From Nonomuraea angiospora (GTDB lineage Bacteria > Actinomycetota > Actinomycetes > Streptosporangiales > Streptosporangiaceae), in assembly GCF_014873145.1 (NCBI RefSeq), contig NZ_JADBEK010000001.1, forward strand, positions 9,796,001 through 9,860,000: DNA of 64,000 nt, in the 5' to 3' direction. The notes beneath the pieces were generated by a model. The model was not told where the DNA came from. It did not search any database and saw nothing but the letters and a program-made list of their open reading frames with translations. Every line of letters starts with the position of its first letter. Position 1 is the first letter of the stretch. This document shows, one piece after another, positions 9,570 to 23,735 of this stretch. Both the position numbers and the translations under genes were made by a program.

Positions 9570-9592
9570 TGCCCAAAGTGACCCTTTGGGCA
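9570..9592. terminator. Perfect 9-bp inverted repeat after the dehydrogenase gene
   Basis: TGCCCAAAG, a 5-nt loop, then CTTTGGGCA. It lies 20 bp after the dehydrogenase stop and 135 bp before the conservon kinase start. It could end the upstream transcript, although there is no T-run. It could instead be an operator: an 8-bp direct repeat GATATGTT abuts it at 9563-9570 and recurs at 9603-9610. Confidence 0.45.
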
Positions 9593-9708
9593 CGTGTGAT
9601 GGGATATGTTCGGTTGGCCGATCTGGTACGGGTTGTGTTCCAATTACCCGGCCGGAACGAATCCCATGCGCCACACGCGTGTCTGATTTCTTTCGAGCAC
9701 GTACCGGC

Positions 9709-9730
9709 GAGAGGTTGCGAGAGTCAGTGA
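9709..9730 (+). promoter_or_regulatory. Conserved conservon leader and ribosome site
   Basis: GAGAGGTTGCG sits so that the GAGAGG block begins exactly 18 nt before the GTG start at 9727. The same block at the same distance precedes the kinase genes of conservon 2 (45293) and conservon 3 (61086). It supports these GTG codons as the true starts and supplies the Shine-Dalgarno region. Confidence 0.6.
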
Positions 9731-12700
9731 GGACGAAAGACCCCAGGCACACGAGGTCAGGGGAGTACACAGGCGGACGTTTCCGGCTGGGGAACTGGCG
9801 TGTGCGCTCGAGGCTGGTCGCGCTGATCCTCATCCCCACGGTGGTGGGTGTGCTGCTCGCCGGCGTGCAGCTGGCCAACGCCATCGGCACCAGCGCCGAG
9901 TACCGCCGGCTCACCCAGGTCGCCGAGCTGGTGCAGCGCATCGGCGCGCTCAACCACGAGCTCGGCAAGGAGCGCACGCTCACCGCGTGGTACGTCGCCG
10001 ACCGCAGCAGAGGCCAGCGCCTCGTGCAGCTCAAGACGCAGCGGCAGGCGACGGACACCGCCAAGAAGCAGGTGCTGAGCGCGGCCAACGCCATCGACGC
10101 CACGCACTCCGCGCGTGTCATCGAGGGCGTCGACAACATGCGCCGGTGGCTCGCCGGTCTCGACAGCCTCCGCGAGTCCATGGTCTCGAACGTGCCGCCG
10201 CGCGCCGCCATCAGCACGTACAGCACCATGATCGGCGTCTTCTCCGCGATCGAGGGCGACCTGGGCGCCGGCGTCAACGACGACACCCTCCAGGGTGACG
10301 TGGTCGCGCTCGGCTCGCTGCAGCGGGTCAAGGAGGAGATCTCGCGCCAGCAGATCATCCTGATCGTGGCGCTCGTCCAGCGGAAGCTGGACAACGACGA
10401 CCTGTCGGACTTCCTGGGCTCCTGGAACAAGCAGCAGGCCGAGCTGGCCAACTTCGAGCAGGAGGCCGACTCCAAGGACCTGGACGCGTACCGGAAGGGC
10501 GTCAAGGGCCTGCAGATCGACCTCGCCGACGCCATGCGCCAGCGCGCGCTCGCCCAGGTGCGCGAGTACAACGAGATCCGGGACCTCGACATCACCACCC
10601 GCCGCGACCTCGGCAACTGGTACGAGTCCACCACCCTGTCCGGCAACGCCATGCGCAAGGTCGAGGACGGCCTGGCCACCAAGATCGTGGCCAGGACCCG
10701 GGAGCTGAGCGACACCGAGCAGCGCAACGCGATCGTCTCAGGTGCGATGATCCTGGTCCTGCTGCTCCTCGTCCTGGTCTTCACCACCCGCGTGGCCGGT
10801 TCGCTGGTCCGCCCGCTGCGCCGGCTGCGCGCCGAGGCGCTCCAGGTCGCCACGACCCGGCTGCCCGAGACCGTCCGCGTGCTGCGCGAGTCCGGCGAGG
10901 GCGCGCAGGTGCCCGAGACGCCCTCCGTCGGCATCAACACCCGCGACGAGATCGGTGAGGTCGCCCAGGCCTTCGACGAGGTCCACCGCGAGGCGATCCG
11001 GCTGGCCGGCGACGAGGCCAAGCTGCGGGCCAACGTCAACTCCATGTTCGTCAACCTCTCCCGCCGCAGCCAGACGCTGGTCGAGCGGCAGCTGCAGCTC
11101 ATCGAGGGCCTGGAGCAGGGCGAGGAGGACGAGCAGCGGCTCGCCAACCTGTTCCGCCTCGACCACCTGGCCACCCGCATGCGCCGCAACAGCGAGAACC
11201 TCCTGGTCCTCGCCGGCCAGGAGGCCGCGCGCAAGTGGAGCGAGCCGGTGCCGCTGGTCGACATCGCCCGCGCCTCGCTGTCCGAGGTCGAGAACTACGA
11301 GCGGGTCCAGATCCAGATCCCGTCCGGCACGCTGATCGTCGGCCCGGCCGTCACCGACGCCGTCCACCTGCTCGCCGAGCTCATCGAGAACGCGATCTCG
11401 TTCTCCCCGCGCGAGAGCAAGGTCCAGGTCACCAGCACCCCCGCCGAGGGCGGCGTGCTCGTGTCGATCAACGACCTGGGCATCGGGATGAACCAGGAGG
11501 AGCTCTCCGAGGCCAACTGGCGCCTGGCGAACCCGCCCGTCGTGGACGTGTCGGTGTCGCGGCGCATGGGCCTGTTCGTGGTCGGCCGCCTGGCCCTGCG
11601 CCACGGCATCCGCGTGCAGCTCAGCCCCCGGGAGACGGGCGGCCTGAGCGCGCTGGTCTTCCTGCCGGACATGCTCATCAGCAGCGGCCTGGGCGTGCCG
11701 CAGCAGGGCGGGCAGTACGAGGCGTTCACGGACTTCGACCCGAGCATGTTCACGGAGCCGTCGCGGAACGGGTCCTCCTCCTACGGCGGGGCGCCCTCCG
11801 GCGACGGTCCCGAGCACGTGGTGGACACGCAGTGGCCGGGGTCGCTGCCGGTGCCGGGGAGCGGCAACTGGGCTCCCTTCGGCGGCGACCAGCCGGCGCC
11901 GTTCAACGAGCAGCCCGTCGCGTACAACGAGCAGCCCTCCGCGTTCAACGACCGGCCCGCCGGGGACCAGCCGTTCGGGGAGCAGCAGCCGTTCGGCGAG
12001 CCGCAGCCCTTCGGGGAGCAGCCTTTCGGGGAGCGGCCCTTCGGGGAGCACCCGCAGAGCTCGCAGAACGGCGACCAGCCGCGCTGGCCGTCCTTCTCCG
12101 AGGAGCCCCCTCCGCCCGCGCAGCAGCCGTTCGGTGAGCAGCCGTTCGGCGAGCAGCGCTGGCCGTCGTTCGCCGAGGAGACGCCGCCTCCCGCGCCGCA
12201 GCCCTCGTCGTTCGCGGAGAACCGGTGGCCGTCCTTCTCGGAGCAGCCGCCGCCCCTGCAGGAGGACGAGCCGCGCTGGCCGTCCTTCGCCACCGAGCCG
12301 CCGAAGCAGCCGCAGGAGGAGCCGCGGTGGTCGTCGTTCGCCGACCCGGTGCCGCGCAGGTCGCTGTTCGAGTCCGAGGACCGTCCGCAGCCGCAGTTCG
12401 GGGAGTCGTACCGCTCGCCGTTCGCGGATGACCTCAAGCCCGCCGACCAGTTCCAGCAGAACGGGCACTCCAACTACGACAGGTTCGGGCCCGGCGACTA
12501 CTCCTCGCAGGACATGACCGGCCCGCTCCCCGTGGTGCGCAACTCGCCCATGGAGGAGCAGGGCGACGAGTTCCTGCCGATCTTCTCGTCGGTCGGATCC
12601 GACTGGTTCCGCCGGCCGGAGCCCGAGGTGCTCCAGCCGCACGAGCCTGCTCACTACGAGGAGCAGCCCGAGATCACCGCCGTGCACCCGGCGGTGCCCG

Positions 12701-13050
12701 CCGACCCGGCCCCGGCCGCTCCCGCGCAGTCCCCGTCGGGGCTGCCGCGGCGCACGCCCGGCGCGTCCGGGGCGGGCGCGACGTGGTCCTCGCCCGCGGA
12801 CTCCGGCTTCCAGGCCGCGCAGGCCGCCGCGCAGCCCGCGCAGGGCGGCACGACGTCCTCGGGCCTGCCCCGTCGCGTGCCCAAGGCCAACCTGGTGCCC
12901 GGTACGGCCAGCCTCGCCGAGCCCCAGGCTTCGTCGCCGGCACCGCAGATCTCACCCGAGCGGCTGCGCAGCCGGCTCTCCAGCTTCCAGCAGGGCGTCC
13001 GCCAGGGCCGAGCGTTCACCCGGGGCGAAGAGAATGAGGAGGACAAATGA
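9727..13050 (+). CDS. Conservon sensor histidine kinase with NIT-type sensor region (conservon 1)
   Basis: A 1107-aa membrane kinase. TM1 is at about residues 30-50 (RLVALILIPTVVGVLLAGV), followed by a ~285-aa extracytoplasmic all-helical region of the nitrate/nitrite-sensor (NIT) type. TM2 is at about 337-357, then HAMP, a DHp helix with candidate H480 in LDHLATRMRRNSENLL, and HATPase_c with N-box ELIENAISFSP and G-box DLGIGM. The last ~440 residues are Pro/Gln/Glu-rich and disordered, with QPFGE and RWPSF repeats and conserved short motifs near the end. The GTG at 9727 is chosen from the leader shared by three conservons. It is coupled to the LC7 gene through ATGA. Conservon kinases work with LC7, DUF742 and GTPase partners as a membrane signalling complex affecting development and metabolite production. 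Confidence 0.9.
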   Translation: MRTKDPRHTRSGEYTGGRFRLGNWRVRSRLVALILIPTVVGVLLAGVQLANAIGTSAEYRRLTQVAELVQRIGALNHELGKERTLTAWYVADRSRGQRLVQLKTQRQATDTAKKQVLSAANAIDATHSARVIEGVDNMRRWLAGLDSLRESMVSNVPPRAAISTYSTMIGVFSAIEGDLGAGVNDDTLQGDVVALGSLQRVKEEISRQQIILIVALVQRKLDNDDLSDFLGSWNKQQAELANFEQEADSKDLDAYRKGVKGLQIDLADAMRQRALAQVREYNEIRDLDITTRRDLGNWYESTTLSGNAMRKVEDGLATKIVARTRELSDTEQRNAIVSGAMILVLLLLVLVFTTRVAGSLVRPLRRLRAEALQVATTRLPETVRVLRESGEGAQVPETPSVGINTRDEIGEVAQAFDEVHREAIRLAGDEAKLRANVNSMFVNLSRRSQTLVERQLQLIEGLEQGEEDEQRLANLFRLDHLATRMRRNSENLLVLAGQEAARKWSEPVPLVDIARASLSEVENYERVQIQIPSGTLIVGPAVTDAVHLLAELIENAISFSPRESKVQVTSTPAEGGVLVSINDLGIGMNQEELSEANWRLANPPVVDVSVSRRMGLFVVGRLALRHGIRVQLSPRETGGLSALVFLPDMLISSGLGVPQQGGQYEAFTDFDPSMFTEPSRNGSSSYGGAPSGDGPEHVVDTQWPGSLPVPGSGNWAPFGGDQPAPFNEQPVAYNEQPSAFNDRPAGDQPFGEQQPFGEPQPFGEQPFGERPFGEHPQSSQNGDQPRWPSFSEEPPPPAQQPFGEQPFGEQRWPSFAEETPPPAPQPSSFAENRWPSFSEQPPPLQEDEPRWPSFATEPPKQPQEEPRWSSFADPVPRRSLFESEDRPQPQFGESYRSPFADDLKPADQFQQNGHSNYDRFGPGDYSSQDMTGPLPVVRNSPMEEQGDEFLPIFSSVGSDWFRRPEPEVLQPHEPAHYEEQPEITAVHPAVPADPAPAAPAQSPSGLPRRTPGASGAGATWSSPADSGFQAAQAAAQPAQGGTTSSGLPRRVPKANLVPGTASLAEPQASSPAPQISPERLRSRLSSFQQGVRQGRAFTRGEENEEDK

Positions 13051-13469
13051 GAGAAATGAGCCAGGGAGCGCGCGGCATCAGCTGGTTGATCACGGACTTC
13101 GTGAACAACGTGCCGGGCGTCGCCCACACGGTCGTGGTGTCGTCCGACGGTTTGCCGCTGGCCTTCTCCGAGGGTTTTCCCAAGGACCGGGCCGACCAGC
13201 TGGCCGCGGTGGCGTCCGGCGTGATCAGCCTGACCCAGGGGGCCGCGCGGGTCTTCGAGGGCGGTATGGTGACCCAGACCGTTATCGAGATGCAGCGCGG
13301 GCTCTTGATGATCATGTCCATCAGTGATGGGTCCTGTTTGGCGGTCCTGGCCGCTCCCGACTGTGACATGGGCCTGGTGGCTTACCAGATGACCCTGCTG
13401 GTCGAGCGGGCGGGCCAGGTGCTGACGCCGGCCGTACGCGCCGAGCTGCAAGCGGCCCGCCCCCGCTAG
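13047..13469 (+). CDS. Roadblock/LC7-domain protein (conservon 1)
   Basis: A 140-aa single-domain roadblock/LC7 protein (MREMSQGARGISWLITDFV onward), second gene of a conservon. The domain dimerises and in related systems (MglB, Cvn proteins) modulates the partner small GTPase. Its ATG overlaps the kinase stop as ATGA. It is closely similar in protein sequence to the paralogue at 48142, sharing for example DGSCLAVLAAPDCDMGLVAY. Cytosolic, with no signal or membrane segment. Confidence 0.93.
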   Translation: MREMSQGARGISWLITDFVNNVPGVAHTVVVSSDGLPLAFSEGFPKDRADQLAAVASGVISLTQGAARVFEGGMVTQTVIEMQRGLLMIMSISDGSCLAVLAAPDCDMGLVAYQMTLLVERAGQVLTPAVRAELQAARPR

Positions 13470-13492
13470 CGGGGCGGTGACAGGAGATCATG

Positions 13493-13894
13493 GTGTCAGG
13501 TCAGGGTTGGGCTGGTGATAGCACTCCGCCGCATCCGGCGGCTCCCCGTCCGCAGAAGCAGAGCTCCCTGGTACGGCCCTATGCCGTGACCGGGGGGCGC
13601 ACCGCTCCGCGGATGAAGTTCGCCATGGAGGCATTGGTGTCCTCCGTGACGTCGGAATACCAAGACATTTCCCTACTTAGTCCGGAGTATCAGGCGATTA
13701 TTCAACTGACCCGGAACGTCCGGTCGGTTGCCGAGATCTCCGCCCTTTTACGCCAGCCCCTTGGTGTGGTCCGGGTGCTGATCGCCGACATGGCGTCCGA
13801 GGGCCTGATCCGCGTGCACCAGCCTGCGCTGGACGCCGGAAAGCCGGACCTCAACTTGCTCGAAAGGGTGCTCAGTGGACTTCGCAGGCTCTAG
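13493..13894 (+). CDS. DUF742 protein (conservon 1)
   Basis: A 133-aa DUF742 protein, third gene of the conservon, with core motifs VRPYAVTGGRTAPR, a winged-helix-like middle (RSVAEISALLRQPLGVVRVL) and the C-terminal LLERVLSGLRRL. GTG at 13493 is preferred over ATG at 13490 because GGAG is then 6 nt away and the paralogue at 48570 also begins GTG-TCA. The 3' end overlaps the GTPase gene by 20 nt in a different frame. It probably links kinase and GTPase in the complex. Confidence 0.88.
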   Translation: MSGQGWAGDSTPPHPAAPRPQKQSSLVRPYAVTGGRTAPRMKFAMEALVSSVTSEYQDISLLSPEYQAIIQLTRNVRSVAEISALLRQPLGVVRVLIADMASEGLIRVHQPALDAGKPDLNLLERVLSGLRRL

Positions 13895-14453
13895 CCCCGG
13901 CCTAACCTCGACGAAGATCGTCGTGGCCGGGGGCTTCGGCGTGGGGAAGACGACGTTCGTGGGTGCGGTCTCGGAGATCCTGCCGCTCACCACCGAAGCG
14001 GTCATGACGGACGCCTCCGCGCACGTGGACGACGTCTCCCTCACACCGAACAAGACCACCACGACCGTGGCCATGGACTTCGGCCGGGTCTCGCTCGATC
14101 GCGACTTGATCCTTTACCTGTTCGGCACGCCCGGACAGCACCGCTTCTGGTTCATGTGGGACGACCTCGTCCGCGGCGCCATCGGCGCGGTCGTGCTCGT
14201 GGACACGCGCCGCCTGGCGGACAGCTTCCCCGCGATCGACTATTTCGAAGAGGCGAAGCTGCCGTTCGTGATCGGCATCAACGGCTGGGACGGGCAGTTC
14301 GCGCACGCGGAGGACGAACTCCGCGAGGCCCTGTCGATCGGCGGCCACATCCCGATCGTGCGCCTGGACGCCAGGCAGCGGGAGTCGGTGAAATCCACCT
14401 TGATCACCCTGGTGGAACACGCCCTCACCCGCCACATGCACACCCCGGTATAG
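13875..14453 (+). CDS. Conservon GTP-binding protein (conservon 1)
   Basis: A 192-aa small GTPase of the conservon D class. It has P-loop GGFGVGKTT (about residue 19), switch region TTTTVAMDFGRVSL, G3-like LFGTPGQHRFWFMW and hydrophobic beta strands AVVLVDTRRL and PFVIGINGWDG. The usual NKxD is replaced by NGWDG, as in the MglA-like/conservon family. The GTG start lies inside the DUF742 gene. It is the last gene of conservon 1. It is followed 22 bp later by the hairpin-rich repeat copy A. Confidence 0.92.
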   Translation: MDFAGSSPGLTSTKIVVAGGFGVGKTTFVGAVSEILPLTTEAVMTDASAHVDDVSLTPNKTTTTVAMDFGRVSLDRDLILYLFGTPGQHRFWFMWDDLVRGAIGAVVLVDTRRLADSFPAIDYFEEAKLPFVIGINGWDGQFAHAEDELREALSIGGHIPIVRLDARQRESVKSTLITLVEHALTRHMHTPV

Positions 14454-14697: not shown

Positions 14698-15237
14698 CCG
14701 CAAGCTTCGTCAGGCGATCGCCGGATCGAGATCGCCCGCCGGGCGCATCGTCACTGGCGTGAGATCGCGCGGAGTGGAGAGCGGACACAGCGTGCCATCA
14801 CACAGGACAGCCACCACCCTCCCGCGCCGACCTATCGGCAACTCGCCCACGGCCCGAGGGATCATGTCCACGATCTTGACCTGACACCCAAGCTTCTCGT
14901 GCGGGTTCTTCATCGCCTGCGTTGGAGGCGGGTGAGCGAGATCGCCAATCGTCGTCGAGGAGGGACGACGGTTCCGTAGATCGGCGTAGCGGAAGGCGAT
15001 ACGCCGGGCGGCTCGTGACGGCTCGACGACCGGATGGCGGGCGTACAGCACCCGCTTACGCCCGGTCTACTGAGGTGAGCGGCATATCCGTGGGATCCCG
15101 CGCCACTACTACAACCCCCCTCACGGAACTACGAAAGCCTCCCGACAGGTCGACGACAGCGCTTGTGAGTACTTTCGACCGCAGACGGACCGTCACCCGA
15201 AAAGTTGGAAGAGGCTCTCTTTCCCAGGGAGGAAGTA
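14698..15237. other. Intergenic region before the lectin gene
   Basis: 540 bp with no convincing gene. Open frames on both strands show no family features and inconsistent codon use. The only functional element I can support is the ribosome site GGGAGGAAG just before the lectin ATG at 15238. A lectin promoter must lie in the last 100-150 bp, but no clear -10/-35 pair is visible. Confidence 0.5.
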
Positions 15238-15897
15238 ATGCGGCGCTTATGCGTCACCGTCGCGGTTCTACTCACTGCGATGATCGCGCTCACCACGAGC
15301 CCCGCCTCGGCGGCCGAACCCGCCGTGGTCACCGCGGCCGAACCCGCCGTCGTCACCGCGGCCGAAGCCTACGAGCAGGTCCAGCAAGCCGCTGCCGCCG
15401 GTGAGGGCGGTCGGAAGCTGGCCAACGGTGTCACCATGTACGACTCCGCACCTTTCCTCATGCGCGTCCGCTCCTACGGTAGCGGCTACTGCCTGGACAA
15501 CTTCGCCTCCGGCGGAGGGCAGAACAACTCACCTGTCGGCTTCTGGGCGTGCAACGGCGGCGGGACCCTGCTGTGGCGGTGGCGGGTCTTCGACAGCAAC
15601 CGCTACTACGGCACCGAGCTGGTGAACAACGCCTCCGGACGCTGCCTGGACTACCCGGCCTCCGCCGGCGGCCAGACCGGTCGCCAGTTCAACGTCTACG
15701 ACTGCCGAGACGGTGGCTGGGTCGGCCAGAACTTCCACGTCTACATCAGCGGCTCCGACGTCTGGCTCTCATCCGAGTACACCGCTGACGCCGTCTGCCT
15801 CGACGGCTACGCCAGCAGCTGGCGCGGCAACGGCAGCCCCGTGGGCCTGTGGAGCTGCAACGTCAGCAATCCCAACGCCTGGCAGCGCTGGTACTGA
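15238..15897 (+). CDS. Secreted ricin-type beta-trefoil lectin
   Basis: A 219-aa protein with a Sec signal peptide (MRRLCVTVAVLLTAMIALTT, cleavage near ASA-AEP). A short Ala/Val/Glu linker contains a perfect in-frame duplication of AEPAVVTA (24-bp tandem repeat). It is followed by one ricin B-type domain with three subdomains marked CLDNFAS, CLDYPAS and CLDGYAS and ending NAWQRWY. Such domains bind galactose- or xylose-type glycans. There is no catalytic module, so it is probably a stand-alone secreted carbohydrate-binding protein. ATG at 15238 follows GGGAGGAAG. A strong terminator follows. Confidence 0.85.
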   Translation: MRRLCVTVAVLLTAMIALTTSPASAAEPAVVTAAEPAVVTAAEAYEQVQQAAAAGEGGRKLANGVTMYDSAPFLMRVRSYGSGYCLDNFASGGGQNNSPVGFWACNGGGTLLWRWRVFDSNRYYGTELVNNASGRCLDYPASAGGQTGRQFNVYDCRDGGWVGQNFHVYISGSDVWLSSEYTADAVCLDGYASSWRGNGSPVGLWSCNVSNPNAWQRWY

Positions 15898-16179: not shown

Positions 16180-17322
16180 TCAGGCCCCGGCGTGGCCCAG
16201 CGTACGCTCCGGATTGTCCAGCCAGATCCGTTGCCCCTCCCGCGTGACGGTCATCCCGAACCGCTCCCGGTCCGGCTCGCCCCAGGACACCCACTGTGCG
16301 TACGCGTCGGTGATCTCATCCCACAGGGACCGATCGCCGAGCTGGTATGCGAGGTGATCGCCGTCCGGGTCGTGCACCGCCGCCGCCCAGTGAGTCGGCT
16401 CGGCAGGGTCGACCACGTACAGCACGAAACGATCCCCCTCGTCGACCTCGCGGATGTGCAGGCCGGTGAGAGCCGACATGGCCAGCCCCGCCCCCGCCGG
16501 CGCGTGCGCGATCGTGCGCGGGTCCACCCGGGTCGTGGACCGCCGGCCGCTGCCGTCGTCGTCGGAGACAGGGGACCCGTCCTGCGAGCGCATCATCATG
16601 TACGACGTGTAGCCGGGGAACCGGCCGACGGCGACCCCGTCCGTCCTGACCACGAGCCGCACGGAGAGGTCGACGTCGAAGCCGGGCGAGAACGGCGCCA
16701 CGATCACACCGCCTGGCCGAGTCTGCTCGACCCACGCATACGGGACGGTGTGGACGGCGCAGGTGACGTGGACCCGGTCGTACGGCGCTCCCTCGGCCCA
16801 CCCGTCCGCCCCGTCACCGACGATCAAGCGCGGATGCACGCCGGCCGCGGCCAGCGTCTTTCCCGCCTGCCCGGCGACGGCCTGGTCGACCTCGATCGAG
16901 GTGACGATGCCGTGCTCGCCGACCAGGTGGGACAGCAGCGCGGCGGTCCAGCCCGTCCCCGTGCCGATCTCCAGCACCCGATCACCCGGCTCCGGATCGA
17001 GCAGGGTGAGCAGATCGACGACGGTCCCTGGGGCGGAGTTGGAGGAGGTGTAGCGCCCGTCCACCTCGCGGATGTCGGTCGCACCGGCATCGAGCTGCGT
17101 CACGATCGCATCCGGTCCGTACACCGTCGCCCACCAGGTGTCCGGGTCGGCGTGCCGGTCGATGAGGCGGGGGCCGCCTCCGGTGAGAACGACCCCGGTG
17201 GGGGGCACGAACCGATGCCGGGGCACGGCCCGCAACGCCTTGTCGACGGCGCCGCTGACCGGGCGGCGCTCGCTGATGGCGTCGATGAGGTCATCAATGC
17301 GGGCGCCCAGGTCGAAGGTCAC
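16180..17322 (-). CDS. RiPP-associated PIMT-like O-methyltransferase, probable imiditide-forming enzyme
   Basis: A 380-aa homologue of protein-L-isoaspartate O-methyltransferase. The N-terminal half has the PIMT fold: SSNSAPGTVVDLL at about 93 and SAM motif I VLEIGTGTGWTAALL at about 116-130. The C-terminal ~170 residues are an extension absent from housekeeping PIMTs, ending with RFGMTVTREGQRIWLDNPE, the kind of C-terminal motif found in RiPP-associated PIMTs of graspetide, lanthipeptide and imiditide clusters. The GTG start overlaps the stop of the 44-aa upstream gene (GTGA), so the pair is translationally coupled. No ATP-grasp, lanthionine or lasso gene is nearby, which points to an imiditide: methylation of an Asp in the peptide, then spontaneous aspartimide formation. 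Confidence 0.82.
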   Translation of the reverse strand: MTFDLGARIDDLIDAISERRPVSGAVDKALRAVPRHRFVPPTGVVLTGGGPRLIDRHADPDTWWATVYGPDAIVTQLDAGATDIREVDGRYTSSNSAPGTVVDLLTLLDPEPGDRVLEIGTGTGWTAALLSHLVGEHGIVTSIEVDQAVAGQAGKTLAAAGVHPRLIVGDGADGWAEGAPYDRVHVTCAVHTVPYAWVEQTRPGGVIVAPFSPGFDVDLSVRLVVRTDGVAVGRFPGYTSYMMMRSQDGSPVSDDDGSGRRSTTRVDPRTIAHAPAGAGLAMSALTGLHIREVDEGDRFVLYVVDPAEPTHWAAAVHDPDGDHLAYQLGDRSLWDEITDAYAQWVSWGEPDRERFGMTVTREGQRIWLDNPERTLGHAGA

Positions 17323-17453
17323 TTGCCGTCCTTCTTGTCCCCGTCACCGCTGCCGCGCTTGCCCTCGCTGCCGTCTCCGTCGTTCTGGCTCTTCCTCTCC
17401 TTCGGGGGAGTGAACGGCTTCAGGCTGGGCTCCTCGCCCTTGTGCTTTCCCAT
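17319..17453 (-). CDS. Putative imiditide-type RiPP precursor peptide, 44 aa
   Basis: A 44-residue peptide, MGKHKGEEPSLKPFTPPKER (1-20), followed by a Gly/Asp/Lys-rich tail with four Asp-Gly pairs at D25, D27, D37 and D42, including N24-D25-G26-D27-G28. Asp-Gly is the sequence most prone to aspartimide formation. It has no Cys and few Ser/Thr, so lanthionine chemistry is unlikely. Start is ATG with GGAGG 6 nt upstream. The stop overlaps the GTG of the PIMT-like gene. This precursor-then-methyltransferase order, with nothing else, matches the imiditide family founded on Nonomuraea maritima NmaA/NmaM. Which Asp is modified and whether the peptide is processed are unknown. Confidence 0.75.
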   Translation of the reverse strand: MGKHKGEEPSLKPFTPPKERKSQNDGDGSEGKRGSGDGDKKDGK

Positions 17454-17845
17454 ACCGGGCCTCCATCGTCCAGACGAGTCGCTTGTCGTAATCGTACGAC
17501 TACGGTCCGGGGTGGGGGAGGTAAAGGCCGGTTCCAGCCTTCGCCGGCAGGCGACTGTCACCCCGGCTGTAACGCGCCCAGGCGTGGCATAGGTGACCCC
17601 CGCCTCCAGGGCGAGAACCGGAAGCGGGGCCCGTCGGCTGATCTCGTCTGTCGGCCTTCGCCGGCTGATCGGGCCGTCGGCGCAGCCGGCGTAGCACTGG
17701 TTGCATTCGGCCGGCCGTGCGGGTGAGAGCCCTTCAGGCAGTCGTCGAGCTGCCGCCATTGCGTGGGGTGGATGTTCGTCGCGCACGGCATCCTGGGACG
17801 GCGTCTCCCCGATCTCATCCTGTCGGGCCGTCGAGGGACTGATGT
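17454..17845. other. Intergenic region upstream of the imiditide pair
   Basis: 392 bp between the VapC gene end and the precursor start. The reading frame of the precursor stays open upstream to 17849, but that extension has no family features and would ignore the good GGAGG-ATG at 17453, so it is treated as non-coding. It holds a 16-bp dyad at 17485-17500; otherwise only GC-rich short palindromes. Confidence 0.5.
17485..17500. promoter_or_regulatory. Dyad GTCGTA-N4-TACGAC upstream of the RiPP precursor
   Basis: Perfect 6-bp inverted repeat with ATCG centre, 31 bp before the precursor ATG. Position and symmetry suit an operator over the promoter of the precursor/methyltransferase operon. No matching regulator gene is adjacent. 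Confidence 0.4.
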
Positions 17846-18250
17846 TCACACGGGAACGACGGTGACCAAGCTTTCAAGTCCGACGAAGTCGTCGGTGTTA
17901 CGCGTGAAGAGCGGCAACCCTCGGCTGGACGCGACTGCGGCGATCATGAGGTCCATTCGGCGAGGGCGCGGGTCACGCTTCGCCGCGAGCGTCAGCGCGA
18001 CAAGGCTGCCGTAGCGAGCCGCCGCGTCGGCGTCGAAGGGCAGAGGCTCGAAGTCGGTCACTGCGGCGCCCAGCTTCTCCATGCGCGCGGCTCGGGTGGC
18101 CTGATCCTTGGCCATGGCCACACCCTGGTGAAGTTCGGCGAGCGTGATGGCGGTGAGCTCGGGATAAGCCGGAAGATCAGCGGGAGAGAGCTCGGTGAGA
18201 TCAATGTAAACGCGCGTGTCTATCACTCCGGCACTGTGCCGCTCAGTCAT
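17846..18250 (-). CDS. vapC: PIN-domain toxin, VapC family
   Basis: A 134-aa PIN ribonuclease. Acidic residues of the active site are visible: D11 in [11 protein letters not shown]46 in TLAELHQG, the D in [11 protein letters not shown] and D122 in TRNTDDF. The DLMIAA-VA and [13 protein letters not shown] patterns are typical of VapC. VapC toxins cleave tRNA or rRNA and are neutralised by the cognate antitoxin. It overlaps the upstream antitoxin gene by 8 nt, the usual VapB-VapC order, and appears intact. Confidence 0.88.
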
Positions 18251-18518
18251 CGCGGCCCTCCCACGGATCGTCGTCGATGCGGTCTTCGGAGCCGAAGAAC
18301 TCGTCGGCCTCTCGGCGCATCGCCGCGTAGTCCACGACGGGAAGTCTGCGATGCCTGGCGACGAGCTCTTCGGCGCTCATGCGCCGTCGGCGTGGAATCG
18401 GTCGCAACTCCGCGATCTCGACTCCGTTGCGGGTGATGTGAAAGACCTCGCCTGCCTCGACCTGATCCATGACAGCGGCGGAGTTATTGCGAAACTCCCG
18501 CTGGGTGATGATCTTCAT
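18243..18518 (-). CDS. vapB: VapB-type antitoxin, Phd/YefM fold
   Basis: A 91-aa protein whose N-terminal half ([20 protein letters not shown], then [16 protein letters not shown]) is the Phd/YefM DNA-binding fold. Its acidic C-terminus ([19 protein letters not shown]) should wrap the toxin. It is the first gene of the pair and is expected to autorepress it with the toxin. It overlaps vapC by 8 nt. Confidence 0.88.
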
Positions 18519-20060: not shown

Positions 20061-20771
20061 TCAGCCGGCGGCCGGCATCTCCGGAGGCGCTCCGGTCGCC
20101 AGCCAGTGGGCGCGCCGCGTGATCGCGGCCGGCCAGCCGTCCGGCACCACGGCGAAGGCGCCCGCCCGCACCGCCGCGAGGGCCTGGTCCGCGATGTCCG
20201 CGGGGTCCTCTCCGTCGGGCGACATGCCGGTGCGGACCAGGGCCGGGCACAGCATCGTCACGCCGATCGGCGTGCCGGCCAGCGACAGCGCCGCCTGTTC
20301 GGCGAGGGCGACGACGGCGTGCTTGGAGGCCGCGTACGCGCCACCGGCCGGGAACGTGACGAGCCCCGCCAGCGAAGCCGTGATCAGGATGTGCGCCGGC
20401 CGGCCGGACGACAGCAGCCGCGGGACGAACGCGCGCAGTCCGTTGACCACGCCGCCCACGTTCACCGCGAACACCCGGTCCCAGTCCTGCGGGCTCACCT
20501 CCCACGGCGCGCCCAGGTCCCGGCCGACGATGCCCGCGTTCAGGCAGACCAGATCGACGTCCGGGGCGGCGGCGGCCAGCGCCTCCATCTGCGCGGCGTC
20601 GGAGACGTCGGTCCGGACGGCCTCGGCTCCCAGCTCGGCGGCGGCTTCGGCGAGCGCCGTCTCGTTGACGTCGGCGAGCACGACCCGCACCCCGTCCGAG
20701 CGGAGCCGGGCGGCCAGCGCCCTGCCGATCCCGCCGGCGGCGCCGGTGACGACGGCGTTGGTGAGGTTCAT
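20061..20771 (-). CDS. Short-chain dehydrogenase/reductase
   Basis: A 236-aa SDR with TGAAGGIG cofactor loop, NAGIVG, active-site S in ITASLAG and YAASK. It begins with ATG that shares its A with the stop (TGATG) of the Ere-like gene, so the two are translated together. This pairing suggests that the hydrolase and reductase act on the same compound. Length and motifs are complete. Substrate unknown. Confidence 0.86.
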   Translation of the reverse strand: MNLTNAVVTGAAGGIGRALAARLRSDGVRVVLADVNETALAEAAAELGAEAVRTDVSDAAQMEALAAAAPDVDLVCLNAGIVGRDLGAPWEVSPQDWDRVFAVNVGGVVNGLRAFVPRLLSSGRPAHILITASLAGLVTFPAGGAYAASKHAVVALAEQAALSLAGTPIGVTMLCPALVRTGMSPDGEDPADIADQALAAVRAGAFAVVPDGWPAAITRRAHWLATGAPPEMPAAG

Positions 20772-22027
20772 CAGGATGCTCCAAACATGGTCGATGAGTC
20801 CGCCGTCGCGGTGGGAGTGCACACGACCGCGTCGAAGGCCTGGTGCAGCGGCGTGTCCACGGTCGCGCTCTGCGATCGGATGCGGTCCAGCGGCGGCCCC
20901 GGGCGCAGGTCGGTCAGGGTGACGGCCCCGCCGAGCCCGGCGTCGACGAGGGCCCCTTCCACGCTCCCGGGAGCCGGGGCGTCGAGGCTGACGACGTCGA
21001 GCGTGAATCCGACAGGGGAGCCCTCGGCGGGGACGATCATCTCCGGCACCTGGCCGGCGGTGTGGGTGAGCGCCACGGCGCGGTAGCGGGGGCCGAGGTC
21101 GCGTGCCAGGTAGTGGCCCATCGGCAGGCCGGCCAGGTGGCCGCCGAAGGTGACGGGGGTCTTCTGTATGTGGTTGTTGTGGGCCACCAGCACGACTCGC
21201 GCGCCGGTGCCGGCCCTGTCCAGCTGCCACTGTACGGCCGCGGCCATGTAATGGTCGCGAGCCGACGTGTCGCCGGGCAGGCCCGCGCCGGAGAACAGGT
21301 CGTTCATCGCCAGGAGCATGTAGTCGGTGTGGCGGGCGGCATCCAGGTGGCGCCGGGCCGTGTCGTATCGGTGCCGGCCGGCGCGGGAGACGTAGAGCGG
21401 TTCGAGCGCCCGCAGCCGCAGCGACAGCCGGGACAGGCTCGCCGTGAGGGAGTCCCGGAACGCCGGGTCGAGAGCGCCCCACGCGGGCGCCGACACGGCG
21501 GCCGAGCCGCCGGTGATCTCGTCGGCCGCGCGCAGGACGCCGGTCACGAAGTCGTCGAGGTCAGGGTCGACCAGTCGCAGGTATTCGGCGACCGGGTCGA
21601 GGTCCGGCCGCAGGGCCAGGGTGTTGGGCAGGTCGATCCCCACGATCCGGACGGGCCGGGACCTGCTCCGGTTGTAGTGGCGCAGCCAGCCCAGCAGCTC
21701 TCCGAACACGCCGCGGGTGAGGGGCCCGGCCAGCCGGAGGAGGTCGGCCTCGTCGCCCTCACCGGCGAGCCAGGCGTTGACGGCGGCGGCGTCCGCGGAT
21801 CCGAGCTCGAACGCCACGTCGGTGAACCCGCAGCGTTCGAGGAGGAAGCGCAGCAGCCGCGCACGGGCGAGGTTGAACTCGCGGACGAAATGGGCGCCCT
21901 CGCCGACGGCCACGACCTGGGCGTCACCGACCACGCCGCGCAGCGGCTCGAGGTCGTCGAGGTCGGGGTCGGCCGGGTCGAGGGTGTTGAGGACAGTCGT
22001 GTGCCCTGACAGGGAACGGGAAGTCAT
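20771..22027 (-). CDS. Erythromycin-esterase family protein
   Basis: A 418-aa protein of the Ere/succinoglycan-biosynthesis-related family. It has the conserved GEGAHFVREF near residue 43, AFELGSADAA, and a metal/catalytic His region LVAHNNHIQK near 285. Ere enzymes hydrolyse the macrolactone ester of macrolides, but many family members have other or unknown substrates. It is first of a two-gene unit with the SDR and starts divergently from the GH6 cellulase. Cytosolic by sequence, with no signal peptide. Confidence 0.82.
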   Translation of the reverse strand: MTSRSLSGHTTVLNTLDPADPDLDDLEPLRGVVGDAQVVAVGEGAHFVREFNLARARLLRFLLERCGFTDVAFELGSADAAAVNAWLAGEGDEADLLRLAGPLTRGVFGELLGWLRHYNRSRSRPVRIVGIDLPNTLALRPDLDPVAEYLRLVDPDLDDFVTGVLRAADEITGGSAAVSAPAWGALDPAFRDSLTASLSRLSLRLRALEPLYVSRAGRHRYDTARRHLDAARHTDYMLLAMNDLFSGAGLPGDTSARDHYMAAAVQWQLDRAGTGARVVLVAHNNHIQKTPVTFGGHLAGLPMGHYLARDLGPRYRAVALTHTAGQVPEMIVPAEGSPVGFTLDVVSLDAPAPGSVEGALVDAGLGGAVTLTDLRPGPPLDRIRSQSATVDTPLHQAFDAVVCTPTATADSSTMFGAS

Positions 22028-22325
22028 GGAAATGCACTCGTTTCTCGGTGGATGCCGGAAGCCGGCGGATAACGCGTCGAGGAACGCGGAACAGAGCGCT
22101 CGGCCGGACCCGTGCCGACGGGTCGCCGGAAGCGCTGCGAGGTCCGCTTACGGACGCGGATCAGAGAAACAAGGTGCCAGGAACCATGCGGCCGATCATA
22201 GCGGAGCCGCAGCACGCACGCTCCGTCACCGCCGGTGGCCGGTGCGTACGCTCGTACTCCACCTCTTGACCTTGTCAGACGGGGTCGGTAATGATCAACC
22301 GCGACTCCCGCCGAAAGGTGCACAC
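22028..22325. promoter_or_regulatory. Divergent promoter region, Ere-like gene / GH6 cellulase
   Basis: 298 bp between two outward-facing genes, so it must carry both promoters. A canonical cellulose-regulator (CebR) box is not present; only a weak core match GGAAGCGCTGCG lies near 22130. GAAAGGTG precedes the cellulase GTG. No coding sequence is supported. Confidence 0.4.
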
Positions 22326-23735
22326 GTGCGATTCATCGCAGGCAAGACCGCGGCTTTAGCCGCGGTCCTGACAGCAGTCCTCGTCGTCCCCCAGCCCGCC
22401 TCAGCCGCCGCCCAGCTCATCGGGAACGGCACCTTCAACAGCTCCACCGCCCCCTGGTCCGCGATCGGGCAGACGACCGTCGCGCTCGACGCCCAGCGGC
22501 TGCGGGTGGACGTGAAGGCCGTCGTCGCCAACCCCTGGGACGCCATGGTGGCCGCCCCGACCACCGCCGCCCTGAACCCGGGCAAGAGCTACACCCTCTC
22601 CTTCGACGCCTACTCCACCATCGCCTTCAAGGCCACCGCGACGGTGCAGTACAAGGCCACGCCCAGCTCCAACCAGTCGCTGGCCACGGGCGTGCAGCTC
22701 ACCACGTCGAGCAAGCGTTACAGCATCCCGTTCACGGCCGCGAGCGCCACGGACACGGCGGCCGAGGTGACGTTCCAGCTCGGCGGGTCCGGCGGGACGC
22801 CCGCGGTCCGGTTCGACAACGTGTCGCTGATGGAGACGCAGACGACGCGCCCGACCGCGCTGTTCGTGTGGAACCAGTCCAACCCGGCCAAGTTCGTCAC
22901 GGCCAATCCGAACGCCAGCCAGACTCCGGCGATCTCCGCGAACATCGCCAACAAGCCGATCTTCGAGTGGTTCGGCGGCTGGTTCAGTGACATCACCCAG
23001 GCCGTGGACACCTACGTCGGCGCGGCGCAGGCCCAGGACAAGCTGCCGATGCTGGTCGCGTACAACATCCCCAACCGGGACGCGTGCGCCAACCAATCGG
23101 GTGGCGGCGCGGGCGACGCGGCCGGCTATCACACGTGGATCACCGAGTTCGCCAAGGCCATCGGCACCAGGCATGCGATCGTCGTGCTGGAACCCGACGC
23201 GGTCGCCGCCGCCGGGTGCGTGACCCAGATCGGCAAGAACCCCGAGGACCAGTACGCGATGCTGCTGGACGCCACGCAGGTGCTGAAGGCCCAGGCCCCC
23301 AACGCGTGGGTCTACCTGGACGCGGCCAACGCCACCTGGCTCGCGCCGAACGTCATCGCGCCGCTGCTGGTCAAGTCGGGCATCGCCAACACCCGCGGCT
23401 TCTCCGTGAACGTGTCGAACTACTTCTTGACCGCCGACTCCGAGACGTACGCCGTCGGGGTCAACGCTCAGCTGTCGGGCACCGTGGGCGCCAAGAAGTA
23501 CGTGATCGACACCAGCCGCAACGGCAACGGCCCCTACACGGACAGCACGCCCGAGGACAACTGGTGCAACCCGCCCGGGCGCAAGCTCGGCGTCCCGCCG
23601 GCCAAGCAGTCGAGCGGCGCCGAGTACGTGTTCTGGGTCAAGGTGCCCGGTGACTCCGACGGCGTGTGCAACGCCTCCACCAAGCCGGCCGGGCAGTTCG
23701 ACCCCGACCTGGCGGTCGCCCTGATCAGGGGCTAG
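22326..23735 (+). CDS. Secreted GH6 cellulase with N-terminal CBM
   Basis: A 469-aa enzyme with a Sec signal peptide (MRFIAGKTAALAAVLTAVLV, cleavage after ASA). A ~145-residue beta-sandwich of the CBM4/9 type follows (LIGNGTFNSSTAPWSAI to VRFDNVSLME), then a glycoside hydrolase family 6 domain. GH6 motifs are LVAYNIPNRDACANQSGG, the acid-residue strand VVLEPDAV (Asp about 291), DTSRNGNGP, WCNPPGRKLG and WVKVPGDSDG. It cleaves beta-1,4-glucan with inversion; endo or exo action cannot be told. GTG start with AAAGG upstream. A shared terminator follows. Confidence 0.9.
   Translation: MRFIAGKTAALAAVLTAVLVVPQPASAAAQLIGNGTFNSSTAPWSAIGQTTVALDAQRLRVDVKAVVANPWDAMVAAPTTAALNPGKSYTLSFDAYSTIAFKATATVQYKATPSSNQSLATGVQLTTSSKRYSIPFTAASATDTAAEVTFQLGGSGGTPAVRFDNVSLMETQTTRPTALFVWNQSNPAKFVTANPNASQTPAISANIANKPIFEWFGGWFSDITQAVDTYVGAAQAQDKLPMLVAYNIPNRDACANQSGGGAGDAAGYHTWITEFAKAIGTRHAIVVLEPDAVAAAGCVTQIGKNPEDQYAMLLDATQVLKAQAPNAWVYLDAANATWLAPNVIAPLLVKSGIANTRGFSVNVSNYFLTADSETYAVGVNAQLSGTVGAKKYVIDTSRNGNGPYTDSTPEDNWCNPPGRKLGVPPAKQSSGAEYVFWVKVPGDSDGVCNASTKPAGQFDPDLAVALIRG

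Follow-up and report, generated by a model that had tools for sequence, protein, structure and literature searches.

A predicted two-gene imiditide locus in Nonomuraea angiospora and a promoter-like element found at many related loci

A short gene overlapping a PIMT homologue

The window, that is, the whole 64,000-nt stretch of Nonomuraea angiospora DNA that was analysed, carries on its reverse strand a 44-codon open reading frame and, directly behind it, the gene for a 380-aa PIMT homologue (Table 1). The TGA stop of the former and the GTG start of the latter overlap by 4 nt as GTGA. An earlier note had described the short gene with its GGAGG-ATG start, the stop/start overlap and four Asp-Gly pairs in the peptide, and all of these are present, the pairs being D25-G26, D27-G28, D37-G38 and D42-G43. 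The same note saw almost no Ser, Thr or Cys; this is true of Cys, which is absent, but four Ser and one Thr were counted, beside nine Gly, nine Lys, five Asp and four Pro. The net charge is +2 for the whole peptide and -1 for its last 20 residues (5 K/R against 6 D/E). The peptide gave no Pfam matches at E 0.1 and no NCBIfam matches at E 1, and three database proteins resemble it, with 89-95% identity across 75-100% of its length.

Table 1. Features of the locus and one related site in the same genome.
Feature	Position	Strand	Remarks
Candidate imiditide/type I pamtide precursor gene MGKHKGEEPSLKPFTPPKERKSQNDGDGSEGKRGSGDGDKKDGK, 44 aa	17319-17453	-	ORF, ATG start, TGA stop
Asp25 codon, predicted modified residue, followed by Gly26	17379-17381	-	column of 46 aligned precursors
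Shine-Dalgarno sequence GGAGG	17460-17464	-	6 nt ahead of precursor ATG
Promoter-like element CGTAGTCGTACGATTACG, with -10-like TACGAT	17487-17504	-	33 nt ahead of precursor ATG
-35-like hexamer TCCCCC	17514-17519	-	weak; relatives often TTGCCC or similar
Peptide L-aspartyl O-methyltransferase (PAMT; PIMT homologue), 380 aa, GTG start	16180-17322	-	PF01135, 1.5e-31
Glycine-rich SAM-binding motif GTGTG, methyltransferase residues 120-124	16951-16965	-	40 aligned homologues
Acidic VDEGD stretch, methyltransferase C-terminal domain	16432-16446	-	aligns with DEDGD loop of P0087
WXXXGXP motif (WVSWGEP), methyltransferase residues 344-350	16273-16293	-	motif as given in PMC13001092
Short PAMT L128, same genome	C1:10462526		

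In Nonomuraea jabiensis (L001/L049) the same reading frame occurs with its start and the 4-nt overlap, differing at 5 of 132 nt; three of these changes are non-synonymous and two synonymous, too few for a dN/dS test. The 60 nt directly 5′ of the precursor gene match at 45 of 61 positions, and identity in the more distant flanks amounts to 135 of 259 aligned columns between -300 and -60 and 129 of 262 downstream. The frame has thus been kept while the more distant flanks have strongly diverged, which is more than chance would leave.

The Pfam domain of the methyltransferase covers residues 91-213, and a C-terminal extension of more than 100 residues is folded in the AlphaFold model (mean pLDDT 92.7) as a domain of beta-alpha-4beta-alpha order. 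Within the glycine-rich motif G122, T123 and G124 are invariant among the 40 aligned homologues, with G120 and T121 conserved in at least 90%. The nearest matches with a species name are a protein of N. angiospora (P0004, 94%) and the N. jabiensis enzyme (L001, 92%). Of 50 solved chains listed, the only one to align over more than 219 residues was the Thermotoga maritima PIMT (1dl5), which aligned over 308 residues with 22-23% identity and which is not known to act on RiPPs. The C-terminal end of the methyltransferase quoted in the earlier note is present, with RTLGHAGA coming after it. A C-terminal domain of this type and a likeness to 1dl5 are given as PAMT traits (PMC10787088, section 2.2), and WXXXGXP is described as a motif of RiPP PIMTs near the C-terminus (PMC13001092).

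By domain, the neighbours of the pair that were tested in the window are lectin, PIN, Phd, SDR, TetR and erythromycin esterase proteins, with no other RiPP enzyme among them. A Ricin-B lectin-domain protein is encoded at 15205-15897, an erythromycin-esterase-like protein at 20771-22027 and a GH6 glycoside hydrolase with CBM_4_9 at 21717-23735. PIN toxin-like (PF01850) and Phd/YefM antitoxin-like (PF02604) genes lie at 17846-18518, and a PIN gene is also found upstream in N. jabiensis. A NIT-domain sensor kinase, a Roadblock/LC7 protein, a DUF742 protein and an ATP/GTP-binding protein (PF03029) are encoded at 9586-14453, which we take to be the layout of an actinobacterial conservon.

Precursor-coupled methyltransferases in Nonomuraea and its kin

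When 54 Nonomuraea genomes were searched with the methyltransferase (E <= 1e-30), 37 gave matches, in 107 rows altogether; 87 of the rows fall in the window, the paralogous locus L011 and a first set of regions, and 20 in a last set of loci. A wider family search at E <= 1e-90 matched 37 of 200 genomes and 19 of 68 genera. Alignment and tree were built from 69 methyltransferase ORFs of 350-406 aa, six of which are those of the window, L011 and L002-L005; short PAMTs, fragments and the last 19 loci are left out of this set. Among those 19, an interrupted methyltransferase gene (L175) has a precursor-like ORF and a partial one (L176) has none, 15 have ATP-grasp-like tails upstream as judged by eye, and L183 and L193 are ambiguous.

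The methyltransferases with at least 46% identity to that of the window number 55 of the 69, and 46 of these 55 are preceded by a homologous small ORF, rich in Gly, Lys and Asp and terminating at the methyltransferase start. An HMM made from 45 of the small ORFs recovers most of them, which, coming from the same data, is a consistency check only. One locus outside the 46, L004 of Streptomyces montanisoli, bears a precursor label in the tree on composition only and has no HMM match. In 45 precursors Gly makes up 20%, Lys 19%, Asp 11% and Pro 9%; the published figures for type I pamtides are 17% Gly, 17% Pro and 10% Asp (PMC10787088), so that Pro is lower here. Precursor and methyltransferase distances are correlated (r 0.25 over 46 pairs at methyltransferase distance >0.3), and none of 2000 permutations reached as high a value.

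The founding imiditide pair, NmaA/NmaM of Nonomuraea maritima, was placed through a homologue annotated to that species, P0087, which is 57% identical to the window methyltransferase over 358 columns and has DEDGD in its C-terminal region, where the VDEGD stretch of the window enzyme is one residue shorter. The NmaM loop is described as DEDGD (PMC13001092), and on organism and loop P0087 was taken as NmaM or a near copy. Because the loop is not unique, occurring in P0087 and five others (six in all) among the 120 homologues listed, this identification is indirect and the link to NmaM/NmaA putative. A further enzyme, L069, shares 96% identity with P0087. Asp-His occurs twice in the L069 precursor, once towards the end and once at the conserved column, where it agrees with the His reported directly after the modified Asp of NmaA (PMC13001092).

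In the tree (71 rows: the 69 methyltransferases, P0087 and one distant PIMT from the same genome as the window), the window enzyme and P0087 fall within one 45-row clade of 44 loci and P0087 with support 100/100, in line with the family and the Nonomuraea founder that the earlier note had named. The case that it had named as refuting this reading, orthologous enzymes lacking any conserved small ORF upstream, was not borne out: an intact homologous precursor was found directly upstream at 38 of the 44 clade loci, with Asp at the site in all 38. Four of the six exceptions retain a frameshifted or shrunken precursor: the frame is broken in the assembly at L052, and the upstream ORFs are reduced to 22 aa at L084, 12 aa at L079 and 27 aa, without any Asp, at L081. 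No precursor was seen upstream of L070 and L086. A second group of 10 rows, which includes Microbispora and is separate from the 45-row clade, has precursors in nine. Between the two precursor-coupled groups branch all seven radical-SAM-associated PAMTs and three of the four ATP-grasp-associated ones (91/85), so either the precursor-coupled enzymes do not make up a single clade or they gave rise to the others; an HMM bears out these association labels for two of the seven and one of the four (TIGR04187, 361 bits), the rest having been assigned by eye.

Across 58 loci (flanks of mostly ~1.5 kb per side, 2.2 kb at most), no neighbouring ORF family was seen at more than 4, and a conserved third gene such as a protease or exporter was therefore rejected; nor does any recurring neighbour point to how the peptide might be cleaved, exported or used. 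The absence of a recurring neighbour family fits the two-gene architecture described in PMC10787088 (sections 2.3, 2.5). The radical SAM proteins in front of the seven associated PAMTs (L100-L105, L107) have a Cys/Pro/Asp-rich C-terminal tail, which might itself be the substrate or might be cluster-binding. Upstream of L011 and L067 lies an ORF ending in FTGSEWAAF(R/K)DGMSKGEFDF, presumably a DUF397 protein.

The column of Asp25 holds Asp in 41 of the 46 aligned precursors and Glu in the other five, and among 20 diverse precursors one His is invariant and this Asp column is conserved at 90% or more. The residue that follows is most commonly Gly (15 of 46), then Gln (9), His (6) and others. Asp25 is thus the most likely modified residue as predicted from these columns. 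Asp27 was rejected as first choice, its column having Asp in just 5 of 46. The earlier proposal of NDGDG as the modified site accordingly stands in part, narrowed to D25; its suggestion of a different core is right as to the variant sequence, which nevertheless lies within one precursor family and is not a new core type. The five precursors with Glu are those of L091-L095, and the enzymes of L092, L093 and L095 have WXXXRP in place of WXXXGXP.

A promoter-like element and short methyltransferases

Many of the upstream regions have in common the consensus CGTARYCRTAYGRTYACG, separated from the precursor start by 21-45 nt, mostly 29-37, and many relatives have a -35-like TTGYCC 17 nt ahead of TAYGRT. 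At up to three mismatches within 90 nt upstream, the element was found at 25 of 38 clade precursors as against 0.13% of shuffled upstream sequences, a count to be read with the consensus having been drawn from some of the loci tested; 11 of the 38, including the NmaA-like L069, show at least five mismatches. In the 13.09-Mb genome of the window, three sites match with at most one mismatch, each ahead of a PAMT gene: one precedes the window locus, one the paralogue L011, whose methyltransferase is 57% identical to that of the window, and one a short PAMT (L128). Allowing two mismatches gives 15 matches against 6 for a reversed control, the added ones resembling chance. Across the 54 genomes, 50 matches at 46 places were obtained with at most one mismatch, where the reversed control gave 17. 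PAMT rows follow at 13 of these 46 places, so that most of the places do not precede one. Four loci from two other genera, the four whose upstream regions were read, have the element at 1-2 mismatches. Imiditide loci in three or more genera carry this promoter-like element. The word 'promoter' is absent from the main texts of PMC13001092 and PMC10787088.

In the window the element is nearly palindromic, with matches at 8 of 9 half-site positions. A repressor palindrome was considered and rejected, since relatives are less palindromic and the 17-nt spacing of the -35 and -10 sequences fits a promoter better; a role as a regulator site is possible. At one place (L169, G048:C26), where the methyltransferase search gave no PAMT row, an orphan precursor-like ORF (VGRHAKPHNPKEQQLDLKEGSVPDERH...) lies behind the element.

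Fifteen loci (L109-L122 and L128) encode short PAMTs whose C-terminal domain is missing entirely or in large part, and the element lies upstream of every one of the 15, with 1-4 mismatches and within about 160 nt. In 10 of 14, a possible GTG start after a Shine-Dalgarno sequence would fuse a leader-like VSRHDGG or a variant of it in frame to the enzyme; three of 14 have a separate 14-15-aa VG(R/W)H mini-ORF and one has neither. In most of them translation could instead start at an internal ATG, and the likeness to a leader spans about seven residues. Their dN/dS values are 0.22-0.45 (eight pairs). These observations suggest that the short PAMTs are enzymes under selection that derive from imiditide operons, in a direction and with a function that we infer.

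Proposed chemistry and its alternatives

Taken together, these data predict that the window locus is very probably an imiditide (type I pamtide) unit of two genes, whose enzyme would methylate a linear precursor, likely at Asp25. It resembles N. maritima NmaA/NmaM in genus, in two-gene layout, in a PIMT homologue with an acidic C-terminal stretch and WXXXGXP, and in a short Gly/Lys/Asp-rich precursor starting MG(K/R)H with one conserved Asp. It differs in having Asp-Gly rather than Asp-His, an NDGDG centre, and VDEGD in place of DEDGD. Compared by their description in PMC10787088, the SpaA/SpaM type I pamtides likewise have a precursor of ~45 aa with a PAMT as sole enzyme and a conserved Asp close to Gly/Pro. 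Unlike those of type II pamtides/cysimiditides, the window precursor has no Cys and hence lacks two CXXCXGXG motifs. With 1414 type I pamtides reported (PMC13001092), the locus joins a known kind and is perhaps already in that list.

Precursor and methyltransferase are probably carried on one transcript and translated in a coupled manner, since their ends overlap and the promoter element lies ahead of the precursor. The PIMT-like domain would use S-adenosylmethionine to place a methyl ester on one Asp side chain, most likely that of Asp25, with the C-terminal domain probably binding the precursor, as has been reported for enzymes of imiditide pathways. By analogy with PAMTs, which methylate Asp to an ester that goes on to aspartimide and isoAsp (PMC13001092, PMC10787088), the ester would close on itself to an aspartimide, whose hydrolysis to isoAsp or Asp may permit remethylation. 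Reaction, site and recognition mode are extrapolated from relatives. Type I enzymes modify linear peptides, and charge pairing between a basic precursor C-terminus and an acidic methyltransferase loop, as reported for NmaA and SpaA, has been proposed for their recognition (PMC13001092, PMC10787088). The window enzyme does have the acidic VDEGD stretch, but with a net charge of -1 in the last 20 residues of its peptide, charge pairing is the least supported step.

One alternative follows the same pathway and is compatible with the imiditide reading: the relevant product would be isoAsp, with its beta-linked kink, and not a lasting aspartimide. Since Gly at n+1 favours quick imide hydrolysis, isoAsp may dominate, and with Gly after Asp25 the pathway is roughly as likely to end in isoAsp as in a stable aspartimide. 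SpaA was recovered hydrolysed, a change of n+1 to Gly in NmaA lowers the methylated and aspartimidylated species (PMC13001092), and more precursors have Asp-Gly at the site than any other pair; against this, roughly half of NmaA is still aspartimide when expression has run for 40 h (PMC13001092). We place this alternative a little short of an even chance.

Very unlikely is a graspetide pathway, in which an ATP-grasp enzyme encoded elsewhere would cyclise the 44-aa peptide before the methyltransferase tailors it. The best NCBIfam model for the methyltransferase is indeed the graspetide methyltransferase TIGR04188, and ATP-grasp-associated PAMTs of the same superfamily, with the same C-terminal domain, exist in the genus (L096-L098, L108). 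The score is 282.3 bits against the 380 required, and P0087 obtains an equivalent 279, so that the match does not discriminate and was rejected as proof of a graspetide. The ATP-grasp-associated enzymes have an ATP-grasp gene in front, sit on other branches of the tree (L096-L098 as a separate clade), and no window-type precursor was seen at their loci; no ATP-grasp maturase is among the tested neighbours of the window locus, and no ATP-grasp family recurs beside precursor-coupled loci.

Slightly less credible still, the small ORF would be a mere leader peptide for translation coupling and the enzyme an ordinary isoaspartate repair PIMT. The overlapping start and stop and the PIMT homology would suit such an arrangement, but the peptide is conserved as a protein, with its invariant His and near-constant Asp column, the C-terminal extension is of PAMT type, and the genome also encodes a 212-aa PIMT homologue (L015) that lacks the extension. 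A toxin-antitoxin-like pair of small peptide and enzyme, to which the overlapping two-gene layout and the PIN/Phd-YefM pair just upstream might point, deserves hardly any credence, as the methyltransferase belongs to a known RiPP enzyme type and the PIN ORF, seen upstream elsewhere in N. jabiensis only and absent from the neighbour families of at least three loci, was rejected with Phd as part of the system.

The imiditide reading thus retained, the window locus is a clear but ordinary addition to the class, and the promoter element, short PAMTs and Glu variants are of specialist interest. Tentatively, and with less than even confidence, the imiditides of Nonomuraea and its kin may be viewed as a set that is expressed together from a single, dedicated type of promoter. 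Housekeeping-like short PAMTs would have arisen from this set, keeping the promoter and, fused in frame to their N-terminus, a leader remnant while losing the recognition domain and the core, and some precursors would have moved from Asp to Glu. If so, the methyltransferase would have gained a function in the cell beyond making peptides, and glutamyl ester or glutarimide chemistry would be expected from the move to Glu. For the class as a whole, function is still the question to answer (PMC13001092). The window pair, which has Gly at n+1, would be useful for how the neighbouring residue sets the balance of aspartimide and isoAsp, and its precursor also offers a non-basic C-terminal part. The short PAMTs and Glu variants offer naturally occurring contrasts in which recognition and chemistry could be compared, and the shared promoter element would make the timing of imiditide production testable with one reporter for several loci.
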